Position numbers and translations under genes: made by a program. Of a DNA stretch of 23,396 nucleotides, positions 920-23,057 are shown one piece after another; the stretch's first letter is position 1, and each line of letters starts with the position of its first letter. The stretch is taken from positions 583,420 through 606,815 of the forward strand of contig MU646322.1 in NCBI GenBank assembly GCA_026770585.1, written 5' to 3'. The DNA is from Baffinella frigidus (taxonomy: Eukaryota > Cryptophyceae > Cryptomonadales > Baffinellaceae). Below the pieces are notes generated by a model. It did not search any database. It saw nothing but the letters and a program-made list of their open reading frames with translations, and was not told where the DNA came from.

Positions 920-1041
920 CTGGCGGAAGAAAGGCGCGCTGTTTCCAAAGGCCTTGCCTTTAGCGATAATCTTCCCGTCCTCCTCTTCCTCTTCTTCTTC
1001 CTCTTCTTCTTCCTCCTCCTCCTCCTCGGCTTTCTTCGCCC
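920..1041 (-). CDS. Exon 23: second Glu-rich exon
   Basis: Acceptor CTACGGCAG and donor CCGCCAG|GTTCTATC bound 122 nt: two bases, which complete the Gly codon begun in exon 22, plus 40 codons. It starts AKKAE, continues as a run of GAG/GAA Glu codons, then DGKIIAKGKAFGNS and APFFRQ. No stop codon was reached and nothing clearly continues it in 1-900, so the 3' end is missing or unrecognised. Confidence 0.55.
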
Positions 1042-4000
1042 CTGCCGTAGGAAGCGGAGTTTGTAGGAGGTGGAGTTAGAATCCATCCGGAAAATGCTCT
1101 TATGAGATGTGGAGTCAGAATCCATCCGGCAAATGCTCGTATGAGCGGCCGACACAGGGTACAGTAAGTGGCACAATGCGTCGAGCATGTGCGGCGCTGA
1201 CGCTGGTTGTTTGGCAATAAATTACCAATCAATCTTCGCCTCTGCCACCATGGGACAGCGCGCGTAACGCACTGGCCACGAAAAAAAATGTACCAATCTG
1301 CGAAGCCCATCGTGTGACCTACTGCAAGGGAGATCGATCTACCGCCCCCCCTCCCCCGACGTCTCGCAGTTGCCCGTGACACAGGCAAAGTTTGCCTTGC
1401 CGGGATAATGACCCCCCCCCCCCCCTCCAGGCTCCAATGAACAACACCTAACGTGGCAAGGAACTGAATCGATCTGGATGCCACATGTCGTGCATCGAGC
1501 ATACATCCTCCATGTGCGGCATATTAGGTGCGTAAACCCTAACCCCTCAAACCCCGAAACCCCTAAACCCTAAATCAACCCTAACCCCTCAAACCCCTAA
1601 ACCCCTAAACCCTAAATCCTACACTCTACACCTTACACCCCCAAACCCTCCACCCTCCAACCTCCACCCCTAAACACTAACCCTCATACCTGGCGCAACC
1701 TCCGCCTCCTCCTCCTCCTCCTCAACCCTAAACCCCCACACCCTAAACCCTACAGGGATGCACCCCTAGCCCCTAACCCTCATACCTGGGGAAGCCACCG
1801 CCTCCTCCTCCTCCTCCTCCTCCTCCTCCCGCTTACCCTCCGGCTCCCCCTCCCCCCAATCAAAGTGCGACGACTCCTCAGAGTCCCCACTATCCCTACA
1901 CCTAACAGGTAAGACAGGACGAAGCCATCGCCCCCTCCTCCTCCTCCTCCTCATTCTCCTCATCCCTACACTGTACGCATCTTACACCGTACACCGTACA
2001 CCCCTAACCCTCATACCTGGCGAAGCCACCGCCCCCTCCTCCTCCTCCTCCTCCTCCTCCTCCCGCTTGCCCTCCGGCTCCCCCTCCCCCCAATCAAAGT
2101 GCGACGACTCCTCAGAGTCCCCACTATCCGACGGCTCCGCATGTACCTGCAAAACACGGGGGGGGGTGAAAGATTTCTCAGCAAGTCACTTTCAGTGGGT
2201 TCGACGCCCACCGTGCGGCCCACTGCCAGAGTGTACCGCGAACCGGAATGTCGACAATCACCCCCCTGACGCAAGATGGCAGTGGGGGGAGACTAGTTCT
2301 GTCTGAGTCTGTTTGGACGCAATCAAAGTGCCGGGGAGAGACTAGCGGGGCCTTCTGAGAGTGGGGAATCCGAGGAGTCGTCGCACTTTGATTGGGGGGA
2401 GGGTGAGCCGGACTTTGATTGCGCCCAAACAGACTCAGACAGAACTAGTCTCTCCCCGGACTCAGACAGAACGACTCCTCGGATTCCCCAACTCTCAGAA
2501 GGCTCCGCGTGCACCTGCCAAAAACGGGGGGTTAAGCGAATCGGAATTCACACGAGATTAATGTCGAACTCTGTGTCCGAACTCTGTGGATTAAGGTCAA
2601 AATGTGTGCCGAACTCTGTGGTTCTAGCTCTGTCACAGTCGTTTCACGAGCGAATCGTGCCTTAATTCTGCGAGTCCTCTCCTAAAATGGCCCATGCGCG
2701 GTACAAATAATAGAAAGAATCATGAGCAAATCGTACCATAATTCCCACCAATCTAGTGAGCCCGGGCTCTGTTTCGCTCCAAAGTTGACGGATTTCCACG
2801 GTGCATCCAGCGTGTCAACTTGAGAATAGTCGGTCAAACCGAGCGAGGCAAAACTAGATACTAAACCACGAGAAATCATACCCCCCATTGTGTGTCAAGG
2901 TTTCGGCTGAGACAAGAAGATCCCCTATTGGGGGGAGAAAGACCCCTCCGAAAAAGATGGGGGGGGGGGAAGACCCCTCCGGTTAGGGTTTAGGCAAAGA
3001 CTCACCTTGCCAGTCCCAGCAACTGCGAGCGGCAGTTCTTCGTCCCTCCGAATCACCTGGGATGGGTTTCGGGTATAGAGTTTAGGGCACAGGGTTTAAG
3101 GTTCGGAGTTTGGGTTTGGGGATTTGGGGGTTTGGGGGTTAGGGAGGAAATCAGGCCTCAGGTTTCAAGGCCGAATCAAACTTGACGGTTTCGGGTTTCG
3201 AGTTTCGGGTCTCGGGTTTCGGGTATGCCAAACTTCTTGAACGTTTCGGGTGTCTGGTGTCAGATTTCAAGTTTCGGGGTACCAGCGTACGCATCGTGAG
3301 GCCGAACTGGCGCTGGCGCCGCGTCCGAATAAGTCCTCCTTCAACGGTGGATTTCTGCTTGGTGCGTACCAGGCCGATGATCCCGACGTTGAGGACCAGA
3401 CTTCTCGTCTTCTCGACGGTTTCGTGTTTCGTGTTTCAGGATTTCGGATTTCAGGTCACCAGTGTCCGCATGGCGAGGCCAAACTACCTGATGGTTTTTA
3501 GGGGGGGGCGCGGATTTCGGGTTTCGGGTTTGGCGCACCAGCGTGCGCATCGCGAGACCGAACTGGCGCTGGCGGCGCGTGTAGTACTGCATGCTCTCCG
3601 GCTGCAGTATCAGCCGGACCAGAACCTGCTCCCGACGGGGGGGGGTCTGTATGTCAGATACGTCACAATGTTGTTTGTAAAGCACTGAGTGGCAGTGTGC
3701 GGGCACTGTGTACGGCAGCTTCAACCACACCAGAATCATCTGCGCCCGGGAGGGGGGGGGTCAGAAGGGGGATTCAAAGCAAAGCTGACGATCGAGAAGT
3801 TGCGAAAGGATCCAACGCCCCAAGAACATCAGCGGTGCGGGCTCGTTCTTGAGGCTCATAGACATTGTATCACTCAACTCAAGGCTAAAGGGCCTATCTA
3901 GGACCTGTATCGAGAGTAATAAAGAAGAAGAAGAAGAACATCAGGCCTGCAAATGGGGGTACCCCCCTTGCTCGTAGGGTGTGCTCATACCAGGCCGATG

Positions 4001-7000
4001 ACGCTGACGCTGAGCACCGCGGACGCGCTATGAGGGTTAGAGTTTAGGGTGCAGGGTGCAGGGTGCAAGGTGCAGGATGTAGGGTGTAGGGTGCAGGGTG
4101 TGCAGGGTGTAGGGTGTAGGGTGCAGGGTGTAGGTTGTAGGGTGCAGGGTGTAGGGTGCAGGGTGTGGAGTGTAGGGTGTAGGGTTTAGGGTGTAAGGTG
4201 TAGGGTTTTATTGCGTAGGGTTGGCAGACCAGGCCGATGATCCCGACGTTGAGGACCATGAACGCGCCGACGACCCCCAGCTCGTACAAAACGACACATT
4301 TTAAATGGGTTGTAAAGCCATCTGTTTTAGATGGGTTGTAAAGCCATCTATTATAAATTTCATACCGAGTCGCGTCCGAATAAGTCCTCCTTCAACGGTG
4401 GATTTCTGCTTGGTGCGTACCAGGCCGATGATTCCGACGTTGAGGACCATGAACGCGCTATGAGGGTTCGGTTGGAGGGTGTAGGGTGTAGGGTGGAGGG
4501 TGGAGGGTGGAGGGTGGAGGGTGGAGGGTGTGCAGGGTACAGGGTGCAGGGTACAGGGTGCAGGGTGTAGGGTGTGGGGTGTAGGGTGTATAATGTAGCG
4601 TCTTAGGGTTAAGGCTTCAGGGGTTTAGAGTTGGCAGACCAGGCCGATGATCCCGACGTTGAGGACCATGAACGCGCCGACGACCACCAGCTCGTACAAA
4701 ACGATACATTTTAAATGGGTTGTAGAGCCATCTGTTTTACATGGGTTGTAAAGCCATCTATTATAAATTTTGTACCGAGTCGCGTCCGAATAAGTCCTCC
4801 TTCAGCGGTGGATTTCTGCTTGGTGCGTACCAGGCCGATGATCCCGACGTTGAGGACCATGAACGCGCCGACGATCACCAGCTCGATCGGGACCTTGGCG
4901 GGATCTCCGTACTGCGTCAGCATCGCCTGCTCGCGGGGGAAAGCGCCTAGGGATGAGCACACGGAACAGCGTCTTTCTATTATGTGTACCGCGCATCGGC
5001 CACTTCAGGGGAGGAATCGCAGAATTATGGTACGAATCGCTTGTGAAGATGACATTTGAGGGCCGTGAAGGCACCACCAGCTCAATCGGGACCTTGGCGG
5101 GATCTCCGCACTGCGTCAGCATCGCCTGCTCGCGGGGGGGAAAGCGCCTAGGGTTGAGCACACGAAACAGCGTCTTTCTATTATGTGTACGAAGAATCGG
5201 CCACTTTAGGAGAGGAATCGCAGAAATCCGGTACGATTCGCTCATGAAGATGACATTTGAGGAGACGACCACCAGCTCGATCGGGACCTTGACGGGATCT
5301 CCGTACTGCGTCAGCATCGCCTGTGCCAGGAAACCGCGAACGAGGATAGTGTTCAGCTGACGACATGGCGTCTTTCTATTATTTGTACGAAGAATCGGCC
5401 ACTTTAGGAGAGGACTCGTATAATTATGGTACACTTCGGTTATGGCGACGACCATGGGGCACCGAATCAAGCCCTGAACCCTACACCCGAAACTGCACGC
5501 GTGAGGAGAGAGGCCAGATTGCGCCTGTAGAGGTACCTATGGGATATTCAATGGGAACATCGTCCCGGTGTGCGCATCTTATCTGGCGTAACAACCGCCG
5601 CATGAAAAACAACCCTCACGAACCTCCATGGAGACCACTCGTTGGACTACGAACCTCCATCAAAAGAAAACTTACCTGAAGACAATTAACTTTAAGGATG
5701 TTTCGATGCAAATTGGTCACGTAACACCCCAGAATCAAGGGTCAACGAAACCCTCGAAACCCACCGTGTGGTTACTCAACGTCTTTTGCAGATAGTTGAT
5801 GCTGTCCGGGCGCGGGATCTGAAGGGACCTGGAAATACACTACTAATGGTTGGATTGTTCGGTACAAAGGCACGTTACTAACCGACATTTCCACGAGATT
5901 TCTGGTGGGAATTTCCTTTAAAGCCCACTGTGTGGGAAGGGACCTGGAAGTAGAGGATGCAGATGATGGCGAAGACGCCGATGGCGACGAAGCAGATCTG
6001 GGACCAGGTCAGCTCGCGAGGTTCGAGTTCATGCTATCTTACACATGGGTTTGATGCCAACATAGCACCCCCCGCCCACAACATATCACAGAACGGGCCA
6101 GTTTTCATCTGGATTATCCGTTTCTCGATACCCCGATTGATCGGGGGGGACCTGGAAATAGAGGATGCAGATGACGGCGAAGACGCCGATGGCCACGAAA
6201 CAGATCTGGACCCATGTCCGCGAGCGGTAGACCAGGTTCGAGTTGTGGAGGAGTACTGTCGCGAACACGAAGGCTACCATCCACTTGCGGTACCTGGTTT
6301 GGAATTTAGGGGGGCGGGGTTTAGCGTTGAGGGTTTAGAGGTTAGGTTCCGGTACCTGGGGGGGTTAGGTTTCTATACGAGGTTCGAGTTGTGGAAGAGC
6401 ACTGTTGCGAAGACCAAGGCCACCATCCACTTGCGGTACCTGGGGGAGAAGTTGAGGGTTGGGGGTTACGGGGATAGGGTTCGGGTGCAGGGGTTGGGGT
6501 TTACTTGCGTTGCCTGGGAAAGGGGTTAGGGGTTAGGGGTTAGGGGAGCAGGGTGTGGGGTGCGGGGTGTGGGGTGTAGGGTTTGGGGTGTGAGGTTTGG
6601 GGATAGGGTTTCGGGTTTCGGGTTCAGGGTTTCTGGTTTAAGGTTTCGGGTTTAAGGTTTCGGGTTTGAGGTCAGGGTTTCGGGTTTAAGGGTTTCGGTT
6701 TTCGGGATTTGGGTTTCGGGTTTAGGGTTGGGCCCCAAACCGAGGGTTTGTGGGTTAGGTTCCGACACCTGGAAAACAGATCAACGGCGATTGATAAAAA
6801 CCATCTAAAAACCTCACTTTATAGGGTGTGTGGGGGGAGGGGCGAGTACTGAGGATTCTCAAGTTGAAAATGCTGGGTTCGCGGCACAAATCCGTTATAT
6901 TTGGACGAGGAAAAGAGCCCGGGCGCACCAAATTGATCAGCCGAAATACAATGAGACAGACGAGTGGAATGAGGAAAGGGGCGAGTTCGCGAGGATTTCG

Positions 7001-9664
7001 CTGATCCACCCTGGAGGGGACTTGCGGCCAATCCCGAATAACCCTTTATCGCAAAAGTTGACATGATTTATACCACTAAAATACATATTAGACCTTTTTG
7101 TACCAGATCCATTCATCACGGGGCAGCCGCATTACGGCCGCATCTCAGGGGGAGTTGACTCAAAAATGCTCAAAATACCATACCATACTGTTCCATCCAG
7201 GGTGGGGCAGGCAGGAGGCTTCGCAGATCGGTCCTTTTATTTTCGTGGTACTAATTAACAATGGCTCGGTACACAGACATGTTGCCGACCGACATTTAGA
7301 GGGGGCGCTTGCACAGCATGAGGCCCCTTCTCAAGAATGTCGGCGATGGCGCCGAGGACCACGTTCGTCACATTCATGGAAAGCACCTTCCACATTAAAA
7401 GCGTTTTTAAGTCAACCCCCCCCCGAAAATTATCAACTTAAAAAAAACTTGGATTTTTTTTCATAAGTTGATAATTTTCAAGGCGAATTGACTTAACAAC
7501 GCTTTTAATGTGGAAGGTGCTTTTCATTAACATGGAGAGGATCCACTTGCAGAATCAGGAAGCCGTTCGAGGTTCTAATCCAGAATCGCTCGGTGCAAAC
7601 ACATCTTATTCACCGACATTTCAACCAGATTGCTGCTCGAGTTTTTCTTCGTATACGTTGTTCACTTGGTGATATACGACTCTGGGTAGGTTCCTCGAGA
7701 TGATCTTCTCTCTCGTGTGACCTCCCAAAGGCAACTGGGGGTTTCTCAAGTTGAAAATGCTGGGTTCGCGGTACAAATCCGTTATATTTGGACGAGGAAA
7801 AGAGCCCGGGCTCAACAAATTGATGAGCCGAAATACAGTGAGACGAGTGGAATGAGGGGAGGGGAAGGTACGCGAGAATGTCGCTGATGGCAGGCAGGAC
7901 TACGTTGTTCACGTAGAGAGGATTCACTTGCGGGATCAAGAAGCCGTCCGCCTGGAAGTAGACATAGTAGAATCCTGTTGGGGTTGGGTTGTGAGGTCAT
8001 GTTGACTTAGTCGTGATGCCAAATGTTGACATTTGAAAAGTTGACTTTCAAAGTTGACTCAAGATCTACTCAGGCAGAGCTACGATTCGATGGAAGGATC
8101 AGGTCTATATCGAACCTGCGAAAGATCGAGGATCATAGACTTTTGGATCACATATCTCCAGGCTTGCGAGTGATAAGAATGAAGAAGAAGAAGAAGAAGA
8201 AGAAGAAGAAGACGACGACGAGGAAGAAGACGAAGAAAAAGAAAAAGAAGAAGAAAAAGTGGTGGAAGAAGACGAAGAAGAAGACGAAGAAAAAGAAAAA
8301 GAAGAAGAAGACAAAGTGGTGGACGAAAAAGAAGACGACGAAGAAGAGGAAGAAGAATAAGAAAAAGACGAAAAGGACGAAGAAGGAAGGGGGGCACCGG
8401 TCGGAACGGTCATGTCCATTCCGAATCCCTGAAGATCTCACAGACTGTTTGATCACTCATCTTAAGTCTCAAAAGTAATAAATAAATAATAATAATAATA
8501 ATAATAAGAAGAAGAAGACGAAGAAGAGAATACGTATTGGTGGAGGGGGGCGGCACCGGTGGAAACGGTCAGGTCCATTTCGAACCCCCGAAAAATTGTC
8601 CTCCCAGCCTCGCAGCCCGACACCTGCGTAACGTTGACGTCTGTGTTAAGTGGACACCTATGTACAGTGGGCACCTGTGTAAAGTGGACATTCATGTAAA
8701 GTGGACATATTTGTAAAGTGGCGCGCATGGAGACCCTCCTGACATGCAGCAGCGTCCTTTCAAAGGTGTCCTTGGCCAAGGACAACTATGCCGTCGACGG
8801 ACCTGTGAAGACACGGATGCACTTCACACAAAGCATCTATGGCAGATTCGTGCGTGATACAGTCTGGGCCATACCCCGTCCCGTGCTCATGCAGCACCAC
8901 AACACCCCAAGCTAAATTTGTAACAAGCAGGTTAGGGTAATGATTGAACCAGGCAGGCATGAAAGGGCGCAATCAGAGCTACTTAGGGCGCAGAAGAAGT
9001 ACCGTTTCGAGCTCTATTTAGTCCGATTCGAGCAAACGGTACTACCGTTTCGAGGATTCTACCATCGTCTATTTAGTCGAGCGCATCGTCTATTCTGCCC
9101 TAAGCAGACAATAGTGCATATTGTCTGCTTAGGGCAGAATCGTCTACTAGGGGCGCGGGGGGCAATACCACGCTGCACACAAAGCCCGGGTTGACCCCGA
9201 ACCCCGGAGAATCAACTTCCAGGCTCGTCGTCTACTTAAGGCGCGGGGAAAATACCGTGCTGCACACGAAAACCGCCGGGTTGACCCTGAAGCCGAAGAA
9301 CTCCTCGCACCTGCTTTCGGGTTTGGGGTTTGGGGTTTGGGGTTTGGGGTTGGGGTTTTCGGGGTTTAGGGTTGAGGGTTTTCGGGTTGAAGGTTTAGGG
9401 TTTCGGGTGTAGGGTTTCGGGTGCAGGGTTTCGGGTGTAGGGTTCGCACAGAAGGTTCTCGGTCCCCGCCCCTCCAGTCGTCCCAGGCGGCCACGGCACG
9501 TTGGGTCCACCACCCTGCAATTCCAGCAGTTTGTCACATTTTGTTCCGGATGACCCCGATGCAGAGGACGCCAACGTCAGGGACGATCCAGAGGACCCTT
9601 GATCACCGCATCGGTCTCCGCAGCATTACGGTGTCTCTCCCTCCCTCCCTCTCGCGCGCGCGCG

Positions 9665-9701
<37 letters not shown>

Positions 9702-11447
9702 GGGCGAGAGACGACGATGCGCAACGCCGGGACGCGCCGGCCAGCCCACAACCGGCAGCCCTTTCACCTTAAAAAAACTGCCCGCACGTGCCCTTCTTCC
9801 TCGTAGACTGAACCACGCGTGGTTTAGTTAACCCGCGCCAGGTTACAAGTTCCTTTTTCACACACACTCGTTCGCAAATCCTGGTACAAATTGTCTTTAA
9901 AAGACATTATACCCGCGGCAAAGAGCTCCAATTCCCATCACTTTTGACGTGTTTCCCGAGTAGAATCAACTTGACACGAACGAAATATCATTTTACTACA
10001 CGATCTTCAAGATTGAACGTGTGCCCTGGCGCGGCCAGGCTCGTGGACGGTCTTGTTCGTGGACGGTAACAAAACCGGTTTAGTCACCAGTACCACAGAC
10101 ACCTGGAAAAAGCTAGTCAACAACCGAAACTGGTCAAACGGTGAGGCTCATGACCTCGACGTATTGCCCGAGCGCACAGGTGACGATCCCGCCGCACTCA
10201 TCCAAGTTGACTGAACCACGCAGCTTCTTGCACGTGGACGGTAGCTAAACCGGTTTAGTCACCAGTACCACTGACACCTCAACAAAATTGAGAGGGTTCA
10301 TAACCTCGACGTCCTGTCCGAGCGTACAGGTTACGATTCGCACGTGCACTTCCCGGTTGACTGAACCACGAGGGTTCTCGTTCGTGTAAGGACTAAACCG
10401 TTCCTGTTCGTGGACGGCAACTAAACCGGTGCAGTCCCCAGGACCACAGACCTCAACGAAACTCTCCCCACCACCTCATCCTCCGAATGCTAACTACCCC
10501 ACGCACCTGTTAAGAGGCGCGTGGGGTAGTTAGCATTCGGTATTGGACCACGGTAGGCCATACGGCTCCCTTGGGACCGCGTGGAAGAGTCACCGGGGCA
10601 TGTGGACTAGACCGGGCATTTTTTATCACACACGAAACCTCAACACAACCGATCAAAAGGCAAGTGAGGCTCATGACCTCGACGTACTACCCGATAAAAT
10701 CTCTGAGTATGCAGGGTAGGGTAACACGCATCGGTGGGTAGCATTCGGTATTGGATCTGTTCACCTCAACTGTCCGAGCGCACATGTTACGACCCGCACG
10801 CGCACTTCCAACTTGACCGAACCACGCAGGTAACTAAACCGGTTTAGTCGGTCGTTTAGTCACCAGTACCAAAGAAGCCGCACCATAACTAGTCAATAGG
10901 CGAGGCTCATAACCTCGACGTATTGCCCGAGCGCACAGGTTACGATCCGCACGCGCACTTCGCCGTCCCGCCGGAGCGCCAGCCCGTCCGAATCCCGCAC
11001 GCGGATTGAAGGCAACGTCAGCGACAGCGCTGGTTTGGGGTGTAGGATTTCGTCAGCGAGAGCAGATGATACGTTAGTTTGGGGTTTATGGTTTATGGTT
11101 CATGGTTTAGGGTTTAGGGTTTAGGGTTTATGGTTTGGGGTTTAGGGTGTAGGGTTTGGGGTTCAGGGTTTAGGGTTTCATGAGAGAGAGCCGAGGCCGT
11201 CCGAATCACGCAATCGAATTGAAGGCAGCGTCAGCGAGAGCGCTGTTTTTGGGTCCAGGGTAAAACTAGTAGTAGGCATGTAGTTTGGAGCAAATCCCGC
11301 CTGTGGAGATGTCGCCCTTGGCCGTGTGGATGCCGTCGACTTTGACTGTCGCGAGTTGGCTCCAATTCCGGCCACTTTTGACGTTTAAAACTTTAACTCC
11401 TCAAAGTCCAGGAAAAAAAAGCCAAAAGTGGCCGGCATTGGAGCCAT

Positions 11448-11500
<53 letters not shown>

Positions 11501-13175
11501 ATCTCTATCTCTATCTCTATCTCTCTCTGTCTCAAGCACCTGTAGAGATGTCGCCCTTCACCATGTGGATGCCGGCGACTTTGACTGACGCGAGGACAGT
11601 AGATCCCAATTCCTGATTAAGGGTTTGGGGTTTAGGGTTCGAGGTTTAGGGTTTGGGGTTTGGGGTTTAGGGGTTTGGGGTTTAGAGTTCATGATTTGGG
11701 GTTTGGGGTTTGGGGTTTGGGGTGTAGGGTTTGGGGTTTGGGGTTTGGGGTGTAGGGTTTGGTGTTTGGTGTTTGGTGTTTAGGGTGTAGGGTGTAGGGT
11801 GTAGGGTGTAGGGTGTAGGGTGTAGGGTGTAGGGTGTAGGGTGTAGGGTGTAGGGTGTAGGGNNNNNNNNNNGGGTGTAGGGTGTAGGGTGTAGGGTGTA
11901 GGGTGTAGGGTGTAGGGTGTAGGGTGTAGGGTGTAGGGTGTAGGGTGTAGGGTGTAGGGTTTAGGGTGTAGGGTGTAGGGTTCACCATCGAGCCAAGCAG
12001 GCGCTCCGCCACGTACGACGGAGTGGAAAATACCAGAATCCGTCCTCTGATTTATGCTCTTTTAAGCCTGATTTATGCTCTTTTAAGCCTGATTTATGCT
12101 ATTTTAAGCCTGATTTATGCTATTTTAAGCCTTGGTGTCACGCATAAAATAGCATGTACGCCTCACGCTGTGGGAGCCTAAGATATCTTAAGACTGTCTC
12201 GTTCCGAAATTGGGGTTGGGGGGTTGGGGTTTACCATCGAGCCGAGAAGGCGCTCCGCCACGTTCGATGGAGTGGAACTCCCCTGGAGAAAGGGAGACGT
12301 TTACCGTCAGTCTCAAGTTGTCGCCCAGTTGACTTCCAAGAACGTTTTCAACTTAAGAAGGAGAGAGAGCTTGATTAATAATGCGGTGGTAGCGTGACGA
12401 TGCAGGATAGCTGGACAACGTTCGCTTCACGGCCAACAACCAAGAGACGTTCATCAATGTCGGCACAGAGTACATCCCTGTAACCCAACCTATCCTGAGA
12501 TGACTTTCAACTCCACTGGAGGAAGAGAGTAAGCCGTTTGGGAATACCAACACGGTCGACGTGTGAGCACTCCCCAGAGAGGCTACGCCTGAGCAGGCTC
12601 CAGAGAGAGGTCATGGTAGTATCCAAGTGCAACAGTATCCCCAAAGTGAAAGATGGCACTCTAGCTCTGTCCCACTTCGATTTCGTCTCCTCATCAATTC
12701 GCCCCCCCCGAAATTTATCAGGTAAATTTCATGAGGGGGGGTCAAAAACCACCTGAGAAATTTCGGGGGGGGCGAATTGATGAGGAGACGAAATCGAAGT
12801 GGGCCAGAGCTAGCCACTGTGTAGGCCACGGAGCTCGTTACTTTAGGGTTCTGGGTTCAAGGTTCAGGGTCCGGGTTCAGGGTCCAGGGTTGAGGGTTGA
12901 GGGAGCAGGGTTCGTGGTTGAGTTTTGAGGGTTCGGGGTTTCGGGTTTCGGGTTTCGGGTTTCGGGTCTCGGGTTCAGGGTTCAGGGTTCAGGGTTCAGG
13001 GTCCAGGGGTACCTCGAGGGGTTCAAGGATGTCGATCCCGACTGCCTCACCCCGCACCTCTGCACGTCGGGACATTTCAAGGGTTTAGGGTTTAGGGCTT
13101 AGGGGTTAGGGTTTAGTTGAGTTCAGGTGGAACCCGAGGCGTGAAAAATGTCAGGCTCTCCCAAGGAGGCTATGA

Positions 13176-13230
<55 letters not shown>

Positions 13231-16200
13231 GCCTAGCGAGAGGTCATTTCATTTGCACTGTGCATGTAAGCACAGGGGCTGCGACTTGCTAAGGCTAGCT
13301 GGATGAGTTGTTTCATTGGCAGATGCTCGGACGTCAGATCTCATCCGGATGAGTATTCATAATGAATACGATTTCGGGGATCTCCGATCCGATTCTCGTG
13401 CATCTTAAGGCTCTAAATGAAGTCTAGATAGACGACTGTCTTATTTATACCCCTTAAGACATACCAAAATCGTATTCATTATGAATACTCCACGGGATTA
13501 GATCCGCCATGCATCTCAAGCGATTTCCCTGTGCGCGAAACGTGTTTCGAACACCTTAATAGGGAAAAGTCCTAAAACCCGGGTAGTTAGGCCTACGGTA
13601 TTGCCTACGGTAGGCCGTAGGGACCCCAGGACCTAATATTTCATAGGACCCCCCCTAGGACCCTACGGTCTACTACAGGCAATACCTTAGGCTTAACTAT
13701 CCTGTTTTCAGGACGTTGCCCTATGAACTACTGGAAAGCCCCAGGGGAAGTTTCAAAAAGTTCGCGACACTCTGGTGTCGCATACTTTTGAGCCATTTTC
13801 TCCTCAAAAGGCAATTTTCACCCCAAGGACGTGACCAAAATTCGTCAAAAGGTGACCTACAAGTAATTTTAGTGTCGTGTCCAAGAATTTTGAGACTTCC
13901 TCTGTGGCTTTGCAGTAGAACCTAGCTCTGCCTGAGTAAACCTGGGCTCACCATAAATGCATTTTAGTCGCCCTTTTGCACTGGATGTTCTGCACTAAAT
14001 GTGTTGTATGGCGAGCCTAGTTTTACTCAGGCAGAGGTGGAATACCGAGGCCGCTCGTGGGGTGGCTGACGGTGGGCCCAGAGCGAAAAGCGAGGCCTGG
14101 TGAGATCAGGCACTTTCCCGCTCCAAAGTTGACAAATTTACACCACAAAAACAGCATGTTAACTTATGAATAGTCCCAGATGGAGTACCGAGGCCGCGCG
14201 TGGGGTGACTGACGGTGGGCCCAGAGCGGAAAGCGAGGCGGTAGATCCCGGGCTGCGTCCCTGTCAGGACGATGCGCACGTCCGCTATGCCGTCACCATC
14301 TGTCACCTGCACGTCCGCAAGACAGTCAGGGACAGGGTCACGGGCGTTATGAACACAGTCACGGGCGTTGGGAACACAGTCACGGGCGTAAGGAACACGG
14401 TTGCGGGCGGTCGGGCCAGAGCGGAAAGCGAGGCGGTAGATCCCGGGCTGCGTCCCTGTCAGCACGATGCGCACGTCCGCTATGCCGTCACCATCCGTCA
14501 CCTGTCCAAATCGCCGTCAGCACCTAGTTATACATCTATTATACCGTCGCTACATCTATTATGACGTCTCCACGTCCCTGTCAGGACGATGCGCACGTCC
14601 GCTACGCCGTCAGCGTCCGTCACCTGCACGTCCGCAACGCCGTCAGCATTACAATTGTATAACTAGCTTTACAACGGTATAACTAAGTTTACAACTGTAC
14701 ACGTACAGTCGCGTCCCGGCCAGGACGATGCGCACGTCCGCTATGCCGTCACCATCTGTCACCTGCAGAGAAGCGATCGAGGTTTCGGGTTCCGGTTTCC
14801 GGTTTCCGGTTTCCGGGTTTTGTGTTGCGGGTTCCAGTCTTCGTTATTTCGGTTTTCGTTTTCCGTGGTTTGGGTACCGCAACAAAGGAGCCCGCATGGA
14901 TTAGTCGTAAAACTCCTGGAAAGTTGGGTAGTTTCTCCTACGGCATTGCCTAGGACCTCCTACCGTAGGCCAAAATCCTAGGACATTTTGGTCCTAGGAG
15001 CCCTACGGCCTACGGTAGGTAGGTCCTACCTAAATCCGTAGGAAAACTACCGAACTTTCCAGGGGTTTCCCTATGAGGATGTGAAAATGTGGTAAGGGTG
15101 GACACCCCAATTCCGGCATTACCCTAATTCCGACATTCAGTAGGGTGCTACGGTAGACAATACAGTAGGGTGCTACGGAACGCCGGAATGAGGTTAGACG
15201 CCGGAAGCACACAGTGTGCTTCGAGGGTTTCGTTGGGCCCGGAATTCCGGGTGTTACGTGACCGATTTGCATGAGGAAAAATCCTTCAAGTTGATTGTCT
15301 CCAGGCAAGTTGACTTTTGATGAAACGTTCGTAGTCCACCGTGTGTAAGGGCGGACACCCTTACCGCTACCCACTCGAGGCTGGAAGTGGGACCATTTTA
15401 AATGTGGGGTTGTTACATTTAGTACCAGTCACGGGCAGGCTTGGTCACGTATCTCGGGTTATAACCCGAGATACGTGACCAAACAACCATATTTGTGTGA
15501 AAATTACTACACAGCGGTCCACTTGTGAAGGACTTGTAACGTTAAAACTTTTAAAATAGCCACACTTCTAGCCTCGAGTGGAAGCCGGAGCCCGCATCAA
15601 TCAACTGACTCAAACCTGAACTCTTGCGCCCTACCGTGGAAAGCTGAGAGTGGGTCTTACGGTTTCGGGTTCCGGATTTCGGGATCCGGGATCCGGGATC
15701 TAATCGCGGCGAGTATTTATGATAAATACGCGCCGGCAACGAAATTTACTACATAAATGGATCTTACTAGTAATTATAAAAGCATTTGTGTAGTAAAATT
15801 CGTTGCCGGTGCGTATTTATCATAAATACTCCTCCGGGTGAGATCCGGGGTTCGGGTACCGCAACGCCGGAGCCCGCGTGGATGAGCGTGAAAATGTCGC
15901 TCTCGAGCAGCCCTGGGGGTAGCTGGTACTTGCACCCGCCCTCCTCCGTCTCGCACTGCGTTTGGTGTTTAGGGGTTCGGGGTTAGGGTTTGTGGTTTAG
16001 GGTTGGGGTTTAGAGTGTACGCACCGCTGCAAGCGCGTTTAGGCACCGATACACGCGACGTTGGTGGACGCGTTGAAGATTGTGAGGTGCAGCGGGTCAC
16101 GGGCGCAAAAACGCACCGGACCGATGGGTCACGGGCCTACAAACATGGAAACGAACCCTTTCGAGGGAGCAGTTGTACGTGAAGTTGGTCGACACGTTGA

Positions 16201-19200
16201 AGATCGGGAGGCACGCGTCGACCACAACACACACCGTTCCGATGCGGCACGGGCTTAAAACCGCACCGTTCCAACCGCGCACGGGCACGCAAACGCACGA
16301 TTTCGATGGGTCACGGGCGCGAGAACGCACCCTTTCGAGAGAGCAGTTGTATGTGAAGTTGGTCGATGTGTTGAAGATAGGGAGGCACGCGTCGACGACG
16401 TACGCGTTGATGACGTGCCCGGAGAGCGGTGCGCCCGTCTTGGCCGTCGCTCTGCGAGAAGAGCACGGAATTAGATGCGTAGGGCGAAAAGCATCTCCAT
16501 ACAAGTATTTATTAATTGCTTTACGATTTCAAGGGGCCCAAAAAGTCAACCTGGAATTAGATACGCGCAACACACGCATTGTTTTTGATCAGATCCGTAC
16601 AGAAATACTTGATCAGCTAATTGAGAACGCGTCGATGACGTACGCAGTGATGACGTGCCCGGAGAGCGGGGCGCCTGTCTTGGCCGTCGCTCTGCACGAA
16701 AAGGTTTAATTAAATGTTTAATTCGGCAACAAATTTAATTATATAGGTTCGTAAATACCATATCAGCGAATTTCAATTCAGTATCAGCGAAACATAAACA
16801 CAGTATCAGTGAAATAGATTTTTCTGGCATGCGCTCGATGGATGCCACTCCTCAAAAGTAGGATGCGCCAAGATTCATACCCACATAGCGGACTTCGAAG
16901 GGATTTCGAATAACCCTTAAGCGATAAGACCTACGACCCTACGGTAGGCAATCCGTAGGGACATAGGGGGGGTTCCTACGGATAATGTAACGGAAAGTCG
17001 GCCCGAAGTGGGCCAAAAATCCCTTCGTAGCCCGCTGTGTGGGTGCGAGGGATGATTCGTGCACGCGTGTCCACGTGCAGTGTTAGCAAATGAGATGTGA
17101 GGGAGAAGAAGTGTAGAGGAGGCACCCGCTCTCCAAAGTCAAGTGTTTCGACCACTTAGGACTGGCGGATTTCATATGGAAACACTCATGATTTATAAAC
17201 TGAATTTCAATCAAAATTACTACACGTTTGCTTTAATATTACTAGTAAAGATAGTTATGTGTAGTAAATTTCATTGAATCCAGTTTATAAATTATGAGTG
17301 TTTGCGAATGAGATTTGCACCAGGGGCGGCTGGGCATCAAAGCATCCACTCGAGAATGCTGGATCCCCCTATTCAAAACCTGGGTTCATTACACGAGGGT
17401 ATTTGTAAAGTGACTTTCGCGGGTTTGGCCACGACCCCAGGAACAGAACATTGACAAATCCTTACAAACTAGTCGCGAAACCTTTGGAAAGTTCAGTAGT
17501 TTCTCCTACGGGATCGCCTAGGACCTCCTACCGTAGGCCAAAATCCTAGGAAATTTTGGTCCTAGGGGCCCTACAGCCTACGGTAGGTAGGTCCTACCTA
17601 AATCTGTAGGGAAACTATCGAACTTTCCGAAGGTTTCCCTATGAAACCTCACAAGTAAACATGGGGCTTCAGTGGGAAGGGTACGGGAATTACGAAACAC
17701 GGACGCACACATCAATTACGGGAATTACGAAGCACGGAAGAACGCATAGGGTGCGGGGATTACGAAATGAGGACGCGAAACTCCCGGCCGAGTTCGGCGT
17801 ACAAGGGTAGGTCCGAGATGTGCGTGACCGCGTAGGCCCGCAGCACCACCGTGAAGGGCTTGGCACACACCTGGGTTAACGATTTTCAGGATTCGGGGTT
17901 GAGAGTTTGGGGGTTGGATGTGCGTGAATGCGTCGGCCCGGAGTACGACTGCAAAAGGCTTCGCACATACCTGTGTTTTTTATTTGAGGGTTTGAAGTTT
18001 ATTTTCATTTAGTTTTTTATGTGCGTGTCTGGATAGGTCCGGAGTACGACCGTGAAGGGCTTCGCTCATACCTTTTGAGGGGTTTGGGGTTTGGGGTTTG
18101 GGGTTTGGGTTTTGGGTTTTGAATCTTGGGGTTTATGGTTTATAGTTTATGGTTTATGGTTTATGGTTTATGGTTTATGGTATGGTTTATGGTTTGTGGT
18201 TTATGGTTTATGGTTGAGGGTTTGTGGTTGATGGTTTAGGGTTTAGGGTTTAGGGTTTGGGGTAAGACCCAAGAGAGAGCCGTGCTGTCGTTAACGAGGC
18301 GCGAGTAAGGCTGGTTGCTCGGCGTGACTGGCGTGGCCCCAAGGGCGGCGAGGGCGAGGCAGTACCTGTTTGAGTATGGTGGATCAGTGGATGGTGTTGG
18401 GCTTCATTGGTGGACTCACACAGCGGGATTTGAAGGGAGTTCGTAAATATTTGATGCGTGAGTGATCATTAGGACCGTGCGGTAGGCCATCCGTACAGAC
18501 ACAGGGTTATCCTAACGGATATTCTAGACGATTCCCCTTTCGCAGCTCACTGTGTGAGGTTTCATACTGCACTAGTAAATGGTGTTATTATGCAGAAGTG
18601 ATACGGGTACCTCCCCGCCGGAAGCGGCAACTGTACAGTCGGCCAGGTGGCTAGATCCATGTGAAGACTACACAGCTACTCGTACAGTCTTCCCCTGGTG
18701 CAAAAAAACGTCCTCAGCAAAATCAACAAAAACTGTTAGTGAGGTATACCTCCCAGCCGGAAGCGGCAAGCTGATAGTCGGCCAGGTGGCGAGCGCCCTC
18801 ACTCACCACTAAACACTACGCACTCGAGCAAACGGAAACGGGTTCCCTCGTGCAACACCGTACCCACCCTCCTTCGGAGCACACGCCCTCCCTTTACTCC
18901 TTCCCCCCAAAAGGTGTACCTCCCCGCCGGAAGCGGATTAATAAAGCATCCCTCCCACCCTGTTTACACACTTCTGCCCTCGTACAAAACTTTCTCCTCG
19001 GTAAAGTGGGGGAAAGCACTTGATCGAATAGAGAACTGGTAGGGAAGAGTACCTCCCCGCCGGAGGCGGAAGGTTGACGGTCGGTGTGTTTTAAAACGTT
19101 TTACGCCCTTTAAAACCTTTTTGAAGTCTGAAATCTTGAAATCTCGAAGTCGAAAACGCGACAAGTTCTACCGGAATGGCTCTACCTCCCCGCGGGAAGC

Positions 19201-22200
19201 GGAAGGTTGACGGTCGGCCATGTGGCGAGCGCTCGGAGCGGATTTCCCGGAGGATCTCCGTTGATTATCGGGACCTGTATTTAGTGGTGAGGGGTTAGGA
19301 GTTGGGGGTTAGGGTGGAGGGTTTAGGGTTTAGGGAGACGCTGAAAGCCCTGGGCGCTCGGCTGCGGCAGCAGAATCCTCGGGGGGTCTGCGGATATTAT
19401 CGGGACCTGCATTGGGCGACGCTGTCAGCCCCAGATCCCCCCCCCCCCACGCATTTGGCTTTGGAGGAAATTTCGACCGAAATCTGGTTTGAATATCGGT
19501 TAATACGATGTCTTTGAACCGAGCAATTCCTAATTGGTACCACCAAAATAAATGTGCCGATCTGCGCAGCCCACCGTGGACGAGTGGTGTGTTCATTGCC
19601 GGTTGGTTTACACCCGAATCCACCTTCGAGATTCAAACCGGCCACCAGGCTTCCACACTAACGCATGCTCATCAGTTTCCTGCTCATCAGTTTCATGGCC
19701 AACCTTTCATGCTCATCAGTTTTTCGTTGCCAACCCCCGATTCGTACGACCCCGCGTCAAAACGGACTCACCAAAAGTTGACGGCCAAGTGTCGCGTCCT
19801 TGGTTACTACCACTCGTACAAAAATTTGTACCAATCACGTCCCCAAAACACAACGCTTCACCCCCCCAAACAAACAAAAAAAACCGGAAAGAGGGGGCCT
19901 CCCGGTACAACCCCGCCCTCCACAACCGAACAAACAGCTTTCTGAACCCCAGAGTACCTCACACCCTAAAAGACCCTAAACCGTGAAGGACCCTAAACCC
20001 TAAAGAACCCTAAACCCTACAGGACGCTGGACCCTAAAGCTTCCGAGGAGTGAAGTGGCCCTAAACCCTAGAGGACCCTAAACCTTAAAACTTCGGAGGA
20101 GTGACAAGCTTCAGAGGGGGTTTGGGATTTGGGGTTTGGGATTTGCGATTTAGGGTGTGTGATTTGGGGTTTAGGGTTGAGTGTCTAGGGTTTAGGGTTC
20201 AGGATTTAGGGTTTAGGGTTTAGGGTTTAGGGTTTCGGGTTTGGGGTTTAGTGTTTAGGGTTTGATGTTTCGGGTTTCGGGTTTCGGGTTTAAGGTTTAG
20301 GGCTTAGAGTGTACCGCAAGGACCTGCGAATCGCGCGCGATGGCCCCGAGCGCCCCGACCTGAGGGTTAGATGTTTGGTGTTTGGTGTTTGGTGTTTGGT
20401 GTTTGGTGTTTGGTGTTTGGGGTGTGGGGTGTGGGGTGTGGGGTGTGGGGTGTGGGGTTTGGGGTGTGGGGTATGGGGTTTGGGGTTTGGGAATTCGGAT
20501 TTGACGACTGGCACAGAGTCATCGCCTCGGGTTCCAGCGTGCAAGCAGGATTCCAGCGTGTTAACATACACACAATGCTAGTCGTAAAACTCCCGAAAAT
20601 GAAGGTAGTTTCGCCTACGGCATTGCCTAGGACCTCCTACCGTAGGCCGAGTGCTCGTAGGAAAGGAGGTCCTAGGAGCCCTACGGCCTACGGTAGCTAG
20701 GCCCTACCTAATTCCGTAGGGAAACTACCCAACTTTCCGGGAGTTTCCCTATGAACGTGCCTAAGGAGTAAGGGCGCACCATTGCGAGGACGGGCACGGA
20801 GAACGCAGTCGTTCACGACGAACCCTGTTCACTTACAAGCACGATCCCACCGTGTTAACTTATGCACAAACTTGTCAACTTATTCACGTGCGGGGCGAGG
20901 GCGCACCATAGCTAGAACTGGCATGGAGTCGTTCACAACGAACTGCGAAACCGACGCCTCCTGATCGTCCCCCGCTGACACCATCTGCCACCGGGTTGAC
21001 ATTTAGTAAAGTGGTTGAGGGTTGACATTTAGCGAAGATGTTGACTTCTGGGCTAAGCTCGGTCGGGGGTGAGAGTAGTCGAGAAGGAGAGATGGAGGGT
21101 GGGGGCGGGGTGAAAGTGTGGGTTGCGAGAGCGCTGCCTTGGTCTAGGAGGAGGGCGTTGTGCAACAGTTGTACCGAGACGGGTGCGTCTGAAGGCCCAT
21201 AGATTTCGGGATCCCTCATCTCCAGGTTGAGAGCAATAAAGAAGAAGAAGCAGAAGAAGAAGAAGAAGCCGGTGTACATCAAGTCAACTCTCTCTGCAAA
21301 AGTTGCACCTAGGCGAGCTCGACGCGGAGGACGGGAGGGAGCCACGCGTCGGGGAACATGAACGCCGCGTTGCCAATCGGCCTTTTGATCTCCACCGAAC
21401 CACGTTGCTACATGTATTGTACATCCCGTCCCTGGTACAAACCGCGCTGCTACATCTATTATATGCACTGCTACATCTATTGTAATACCTTTCCTGGTAC
21501 AAAACAGTAACGCGATCCGACGCCCCATCTGCGAAGGGCAGGAACCTGGGCGAGCTCGACGCGGAGGACGGGAGGGAGCCACGCGTCGGGGAACATGAAC
21601 GCCGCGTTACCAATCGGCCTTTGGATCTCCACCAATGCCTGCCGTATCCCCGAAAAAATGTCAGCAAATCGTGTACGTGGACGCGAATGCTGTCAGCAAT
21701 GCGTGTAGATGGACGCACTGTCAGCAATACTCATTCGTGGATACAATTCCAACAGCGCACACACGTCAGCTCCCGACCGCCCTCCATCCTCCCGCCATGT
21801 AAAAGAGGACACCATCGATTTCAGGATCGACAGGCCACGCAAAAAAAACATGCATCCAGAGGGGGGGGCGGGGGGCTGAAGCACGGCGGTCACCACCCCA
21901 TCTCACCGCAACCCACCCACGACGTGCAACACGGTGTACTCTCGCCAACGGGCAAACCACACACACACAGGGGTGGCATCCACACAGCGGACTTGGAAGG
22001 GATTTTGAATAACCCCTAAGCGATAAGACCTAGGACCCTACGGTAGGAAACCCGTAGGGCCATAGAAGGTTCCTACGGATAAGGTAACGGAAACTCGGGC
22101 ACTGAGTGCCCGAAAATCCCTTTGTAGCCTGCTGTGTGGACAGGCGAACTGATGGGTGTTGCCAATGAAGCCTGCACAAAACATTGCGGGAGGAGACCTG

Positions 22201-23057: not shown

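Follow-up and report, generated by a model that had tools for sequence, protein, structure and literature searches.

The window, i.e., the whole stretch of 23,396 nt analysed here (C20:583420-606815 of an assembly of 382,457,362 bases in 1364 contigs), carries on its minus strand 26 exons of 36-142 nt each, which join in frame into 739 amino acids without any stop codon. All 25 introns of the curated model are of the GT-AG type with the acceptor CAG (23) or TAG (2), and the junctions comprise 16 in phase 0, five in phase 1 and four in phase 2. Intron lengths range from 139 to 1578 nt with a median of 689 nt (n = 25), exons of about 85 nt typically alternating with introns of about 690 nt (medians), and introns make up about nine tenths of the gene (19,919 nt of intron versus 2,219 nt of exon). 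Nineteen of the 25 exons downstream of a junction begin with G and 12 with GT, the latter having a probability of 2e-9 against the GT rate within these exons. The gene is almost certainly real, and the best explanation is that these 26 exons belong to a larger spliceosomal gene encoding a surface membrane protein. As a donor site follows exon 26 and the tail of the homologous protein P0001 continues, the gene extends beyond the window at least on the 3' side (left), while its start probably lies further right than exon 1 of the window. The window sequence contains no match to an Rfam family and no tRNA. By its size, splice sites and introns, the assembly is eukaryotic in character.

The draft of this gene was first assembled manually and with scripts, guided by AG/GT borders, codon pattern and phase, and the homologue was used only afterwards, when alignment with P0001 corrected five exon borders, added exon 19 and took out one false exon. 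Exons 1 to 7 and most of exon 8 are ab initio predictions from sequence pattern: exon 1 (22969-23057, recognized by its AG/GT borders and codon pattern; all exons lie on the minus strand), exon 2 (22479-22553), exon 3 (21546-21638), exon 4 (20907-20984), the 36-nt exon 5 (20324-20359), exon 6 (19340-19406) and exon 7 (18611-18650), which was picked over near copies in intron 6 by its phase fit. Only the last residues of exon 8 (18269-18365) align to P0001. The following exons are aligned with P0001: exons 9 (17764-17870), 10 (16331-16451), 11 (15860-15955), 12 (14189-14306), 13 (13013-13059), 14 (12235-12282), 15 (11540-11612), 16 (10914-11029), 17 (9450-9514), 18 (9256-9310), 20 (7872-7974), 21 (6152-6293), 22 (4831-4926), 23 (3539-3625) and 24 (3006-3056), together with exon 19 (8557-8623), which was detected via the homologue only (78% identity over 23 residues). 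Exons 25 (2017-2146) and 26 (920-1041) encode the acidic tail, with tentative exact joins; the alignment to P0001 covers the first residues (VHAEP) of exon 25 and is of low complexity in exon 26.

Several candidates were rejected. The hydrophobic stretch at 9555-9597 fits no phase and is passed straight over by the homologue, and the F-rich stretch at 8214-8444, which an initial automatic decoding had picked, is a microsatellite of the other strand. That decoding, which gave 38 exons, counted intronic copies of exon sequence (echoes, see below) as exons and was superseded by hand curation and the homologue.

The sequence-only reading had proposed a single minus-strand gene of many micro-exons with AG/GT borders and in-frame joins, in a region lacking a long open reading frame. 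This picture is borne out by the 25 GT-AG introns and by two collinear homologues, and the longest of the 44 listed open reading frames (of at least 80 aa) measures 232 aa and encodes a different protein. Nine junctions split codons in the curated model, where seven had been claimed, and the exon count of 23 is replaced by 26 within the window. Among the borders named, 23057, 920, 6152-6293 and 4831-4926 are exact, while the exon given as 7872-7951 keeps its 3' end and by homology starts at 7974, which lengthens it by 23 nt.

A search of the draft protein against 5.8 billion proteins returned two matches, P0001 (814 aa; E 1.1e-147) and P0002 (798 aa, 8 member sequences; E 6.7e-147), with 53% identity over 81% of the stretch used as query. 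Both originate from jgi, from contigs of at most 7,537 and 16,902 bases, respectively, and their mutual identity of 96% makes them a single independent witness. The core of the window protein (residues 183-660, 478 aa) is collinear with the homologue at 61% identity, and its alignment gaps are short, with four residues at the start, three near residue 190 (one residue from intron 8) and two at residues 279-280 in exon 11. When the 481-aa core of P0001 was compared with the window by tblastn, 18 matches were obtained at E<=0.01, all 18 on the minus strand, some of them being echoes instead of exons (e.g., 5323-5240 and 14501-14409), whereas five dinucleotide shuffles and the reversed protein gave none. 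A second protein search via the core alignment yielded no relatives beyond these two proteins (best 7999 candidates scored), no relative was confirmed among viral contigs or GTDB genomes, and none of the 3706 candidates scored in a protein search with residues 1-195 (the N-terminal part, with exons 1-7 and most of exon 8) reached E<=10.

Within the 478-residue core, the window gene has 17 introns. Judging from their entries, each a single predicted protein on a short contig, the relatives appear to carry this core as one long frame without introns, in which case the 17 introns were either gained here or lost there. Intron gain or strong growth in the lineage of the window is favoured, although loss in the lineage of P0001 would explain the presence/absence pattern equally.

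The joined protein contains five N-glycosylation motifs, and exon 10 holds three such motifs. Hydropathy identifies two clear membrane segments (residues 558-576 and 594-612), while a likely first segment (KWMVAF...) remains below the cut-off of 1.5; the earlier count of "at least three" is plausible. As judged from its sequence, the product probably comprises an ectodomain with N-glycosylation motifs, a linker (glycine/proline-rich, exon 17), probably three membrane segments (membrane part in exons 21 and 22), a basic stretch (exon 23) and a very acidic inner tail, which in P0001 runs for about 250 further residues absent from the window. The order of ectodomain, linker, membrane part and acidic tail agrees with that first proposed and recurs in the two homologues. 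For an Ig-like fold, also proposed, no support was found: there is no Pfam match in that part and no match in a PDB profile search, and the AlphaFold model (P0001 and P0002) is unusable with a mean pLDDT of 33.1. No Pfam family was found in the N-terminal 418 residues of the draft, and none scored above the curated cut-off elsewhere, the best E for the draft halves being 0.28 and the best match below the cut-off being YL1 (18.5 versus 29.2 bits) in the acidic stretch of P0002. The PDB profile search with the core retrieved no chain, while the best hit of a single-sequence search with the ectodomain was cyclophilin A at chance level (E 0.039). As a guess, at somewhat less than even odds, the product may be a cell-surface protein sensing or binding something outside.

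The introns of this gene contain mostly partial copies of the neighbouring exons, here termed echoes. When exons 1-24 were compared with the introns by BLAST at E<=1e-3 (exons 25 and 26 were excluded for low complexity), 34 copies were identified, of which 33 are located in one of the two introns adjoining the exon they resemble, where 3.2 would be expected from intron length; the only exception is a copy of exon 22 in intron 23. All 34 are in sense orientation with none inverted, they occupy 18 of the 25 introns and derive from 16 of the 24 exons, and three block-shuffled intron sets gave no match. Inverted matches appear when exons 25-26 and flanks of 15 nt are included (exon 26 with poly-GAA stretches, and exon 25 with a single stretch within intron 24). 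Under other settings, 29 echo pairs were obtained, comprising 16 exon tails which reach the donor and lie downstream, 12 exon heads which reach the acceptor and lie upstream, and one that does neither. The likeness ends no more than 12 nt from the splice site in 11 of the 28 (5.6 under a placement null, P 0.007).

Divergence of the echoes from their own exons ranges from 2 to 25%. The most recent ones, from exons 3 and 22 (97-98% identity), stop 2 nt past the exon and are preceded by 134-147 nt of unrelated DNA; they are located at 21307-21396 in intron 3 (minus strand; 97%, ending 2 nt after the donor position) and at 4638-4694 in intron 22 (minus strand; 98%, likewise ending 2 nt after the donor position), with another tail echo of exon 22 at 4228-4284. 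The head of exon 12 is echoed three times in intron 11 (14408-14504, 14573-14646 and 14711-14767, minus strand), exon 10 has a head echo in intron 9 (16627-16703, minus strand) and a tail echo in intron 10 (16098-16225), and tandem copies of the head of exon 22 together with intron sequence fill 5075-5452 (minus strand) in intron 21. The inserts between exon and echo share no common sequence and consist of minisatellites, of (AG)n with fold-back sequence, or of telomere-like heptamers. The copy of exon 4 is shifted in reading frame, as judged by eye. Four copies of exon 7 stand in a row (18747-18793, 18916-18936, 19049-19069 and 19183-19229) and are candidate alternative exons; the first and the last match the whole exon including both borders. 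Tandem units lying wholly within introns also occur, e.g., of 201 and 410 nt.

Period-7 arrays are confined to the introns, where they take up 2,612 nt (0 nt in exons), and amount to at least 20 nt in 16 of them. The largest (11621-11982, intron 14), which is G-rich on the plus strand and C-rich on the sense strand, contains a gap of 10 N at 11863-11872. On the sense strand of the window gene, 187 C-rich heptamer motifs were counted versus 22 G-rich ones, and the introns lean accordingly, 18 being C-rich, three G-rich and four neither (P 0.0015); the orientation bias is not absolute, as introns 5, 21 and 25 hold 21 of the 22 G-rich motifs. The heptamers are spread evenly along the introns and are not concentrated at the acceptor. 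CCCTAAA repeats contain neither GT nor AG, whereas TTTAGGG repeats contain both.

A second gene with such introns (C2:895001-905425, pieces L033 and L016, plus strand) was modelled ab initio with 22 exons, and its commonest heptamer class is AAACCCT, as in the window gene, with self-match peaks at lags 7, 14 and 21. It has 183 C-rich and 0 G-rich motifs, with 18 of its 21 introns C-rich and none G-rich, but this is no blind test, as the gene was picked and modelled after the 111-to-0 bias of its region had been seen. The model is supported by long coding stretches and one Pfam match, Big_9 (33.3 bits versus a cut-off of 23.6), which falls largely within a single exon and extends about 8 residues past one junction. 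Its product is predicted to be a large protein with an N-glycosylated ectodomain, and several of its introns consist of CCCTAAA-like heptamers over more than half their length. In pieces with unmodelled genes, the G-rich/C-rich counts are 7/2, 7/2, 4/5, 1/0, 1/2, 6/13, 6/8 and 8/29 for L001-L008 (with L001 overlapping L002, and L006 overlapping L007), and 37/2 for L022, 17/55 for L031, 0/30 for L010, 0/10 for L025, 0/8 for L032 and 0/0 for L014.

Echoes likewise occur elsewhere in the genome, though at uneven density. Of 42 ab initio exon candidates in three partly readable regions, 35 were examined for further copies, and a second copy was found near eight of them (6 of 16 in L031, 2 of 10 in L016 and 0 of 9 in L014). 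The minus-strand exon 9286-9396 of L031 has a tail copy of 91% identity 141 nt downstream, which ends at the donor. On the plus strand of L031, two near-identical candidate exons (4719-4790 and 4944-5010; 85%) lie 153 nt apart in a heptamer-rich region on another contig. The second gene has six exon-intron matches at E<=1e-2, three of them adjacent and one inverted.

No clear telomere was found among the 11 contig ends examined. The right end of C4 (L043) carries a clean CCCTAAA run, which is the wrong strand for a right-hand telomere and thus probably marks an assembly break in an internal array. GGGTTCC repeats are present at the right end of C20 (L055), and the last 400 bases at the right end of C6 (L047) look AT-rich, unlike the rest, and are perhaps organellar or foreign DNA.

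Palindromic MITE-like elements of about 175 nt are located at 14902-15076 (intron 11), 17470-17644 (intron 9) and 20579-20754 (intron 4). The core of this element matches the assembly exactly at 1377 + 1425 places (2802), where each palindrome may yield two matches, and the reversed pattern has none. Two further repeat families have two copies each in the introns, one direct with 86% identity (16881-17042 and 21980-22139) and one inverted with 80% identity (5636-5773 and 15205-15345). The repeat patterns of the window have no match in viral contigs. At the junctions themselves, the footprint of break repair is weak: direct repeats of at least 4 nt to the right of the junction occur in 4 of 25 introns (1.2 when permuted, P 0.017), and those of at least 5 nt with both junction sides counted occur in 4 of 25 introns versus 4.3 when permuted (P 0.72).

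From the exons, the homology, the echoes and the strand bias of the window gene, we tentatively infer, at a little under an even chance, that the introns are scars of repeated break repair, made of duplicated exon edges and filler, with selection on the orientation of the filler. A DNA break near a splice site would be repaired by fill-in duplicating 30-100 nt of the exon edge, and filler would be added in the form of minisatellites, fold-back elements or telomere-like heptamers from telomerase or slippage. The edge copy would be tolerated if the splice machinery still joins the outermost intact exon parts. Telomere-like filler would be retained mainly where its C-rich strand is transcribed, because the CCCTAAA strand is pyrimidine-rich and free of GT and AG, while TTTAGGG would bring in both decoy dinucleotides. 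In a stronger and unlikely version, breaks in genes would often be healed by telomerase, which would add its repeats between duplicated exon edges, and the insert would be a spliceosomal intron at once if the CCCTAAA strand is transcribed, no competing GT or AG being present. The role given to telomerase is the most daring and least supported part of this reading, as slippage could also spread an old heptamer.

It is also quite possible, if somewhat doubtful, that this is an ordinary intron-rich gene, in which old introns were lengthened by replication slippage and unequal crossing over, which would copy any stretch in tandem, exon edges among them, the heptamers are a satellite, and the lineage of P0001 lost its introns. 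Local direct copies such as the 201- and 410-nt units also arise wholly within introns, copies of exons are easier to recognize because just one of the two copies drifts, and expansion of repeats has been described as giving rise to introns (PMC2395259). However, the abrupt ends of the young echoes, within 2 nt of the donor and beyond a spacer of unrelated DNA, are unlike plain tandem duplication, and slippage alone does not account for sense-strand biases of 187 to 22 and 183 to 0. Introner-type transposable elements, of which some have terminal inverted repeats (PMC9860276, PMC7789003), are a rather improbable source of these introns: the palindromic element with its numerous exact matches and the two-copy families would suit them, but the three copies of the element are internal to introns 4, 9 and 11 and fall short of the splice sites, and none of the introns in the window resembles another over its full length.

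That the exon copies are working alternative exons and not debris is very improbable. The two whole copies of exon 7 with their borders suggest such a role, whereas 28 of the 29 echoes are partial, being tails that reach the donor only or heads that reach the acceptor only, and the exon 4 copy is frame-shifted. An assembly error, with introns made of mis-joined repeats, is scarcely credible, since the echoes differ from their exons and keep a fixed order between collinear exons and the same heptamer introns are found at a second locus on another contig; the 10-N gap within the largest heptamer array is the feature that fits it.

The repair part of the favoured reading, i.e., intron growth by break repair, resembles at a larger scale the proposal made for Daphnia, where staggered breaks would lengthen new introns (PMC4202315). 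In both cases introns would be lengthened by inserts between direct repeats, and the end of an adjacent exon is repeated in the intron, but the repeats described in Daphnia measure 4-17 nt (4-12 bp where shared with the exon), whereas those in the window are mostly 30-100 nt long, number up to several per intron and affect 18 of 25 introns; the relevant sections of the Daphnia paper mention neither telomere-like filler nor a strand bias (PMC4202315). In an RdRp gene of potato, a duplication spans an exon-intron border, and the added copy ends up in the intron, as here, but it is described as a single event (PMC4974935), while the window shows the pattern at many exons and often with unrelated DNA between the copies. 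Introners likewise place inverted-repeat elements with many genomic copies in introns (PMC9860276, PMC7789003), but the window elements sit within longer introns and do not provide both splice sites.

In mammals, break repair is reported to insert telomeric repeats, with duplication of the target site as one of the outcomes, which yields short telomere-like arrays at internal sites (PMC2246262). The arrays of the window are similar but, unlike those described there, occupy spliceosomal introns and are oriented according to transcription. In the highly intron-rich chlorarachniophyte Amorphochlora, a gene which is also mostly intron has GT-AG introns that are specific to the lineage and in some cases lie at AG|GN sites, but these contain [AT]n repeats, and the relevant parts of that report mention no exon echoes or telomere-like arrays (PMC12730881). 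The classic AGGT tandem-duplication intron starts with a copy of the head of the next exon and ends with a copy of the tail of the previous exon. In 28 of 29 echoes of the window the arrangement differs, with tails plus donor lying in the downstream intron and heads plus acceptor in the upstream one. No precedent in print for strand-biased telomere-like introns or for adjacent exon-edge echoes was found in the open-licence literature searched.

How introns originate and lengthen is an old open question, and here one gene appears to present both states, as the core is uninterrupted in the relatives (judging from their listing) and is split by 17 introns in the window, with echoes and biased arrays as traces. 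Genes of this kind, with micro-exons between long introns and in many cases look-alike exon edges, would be missed by gene finders and domain searches. If the telomerase reading were true, break repair would set the number and size of introns, and the direction in which the repeats point would preserve a trace of past selection on splicing. If the pattern should prove genome-wide, intron growth by break repair could be counted, dated and tested in a single genome.
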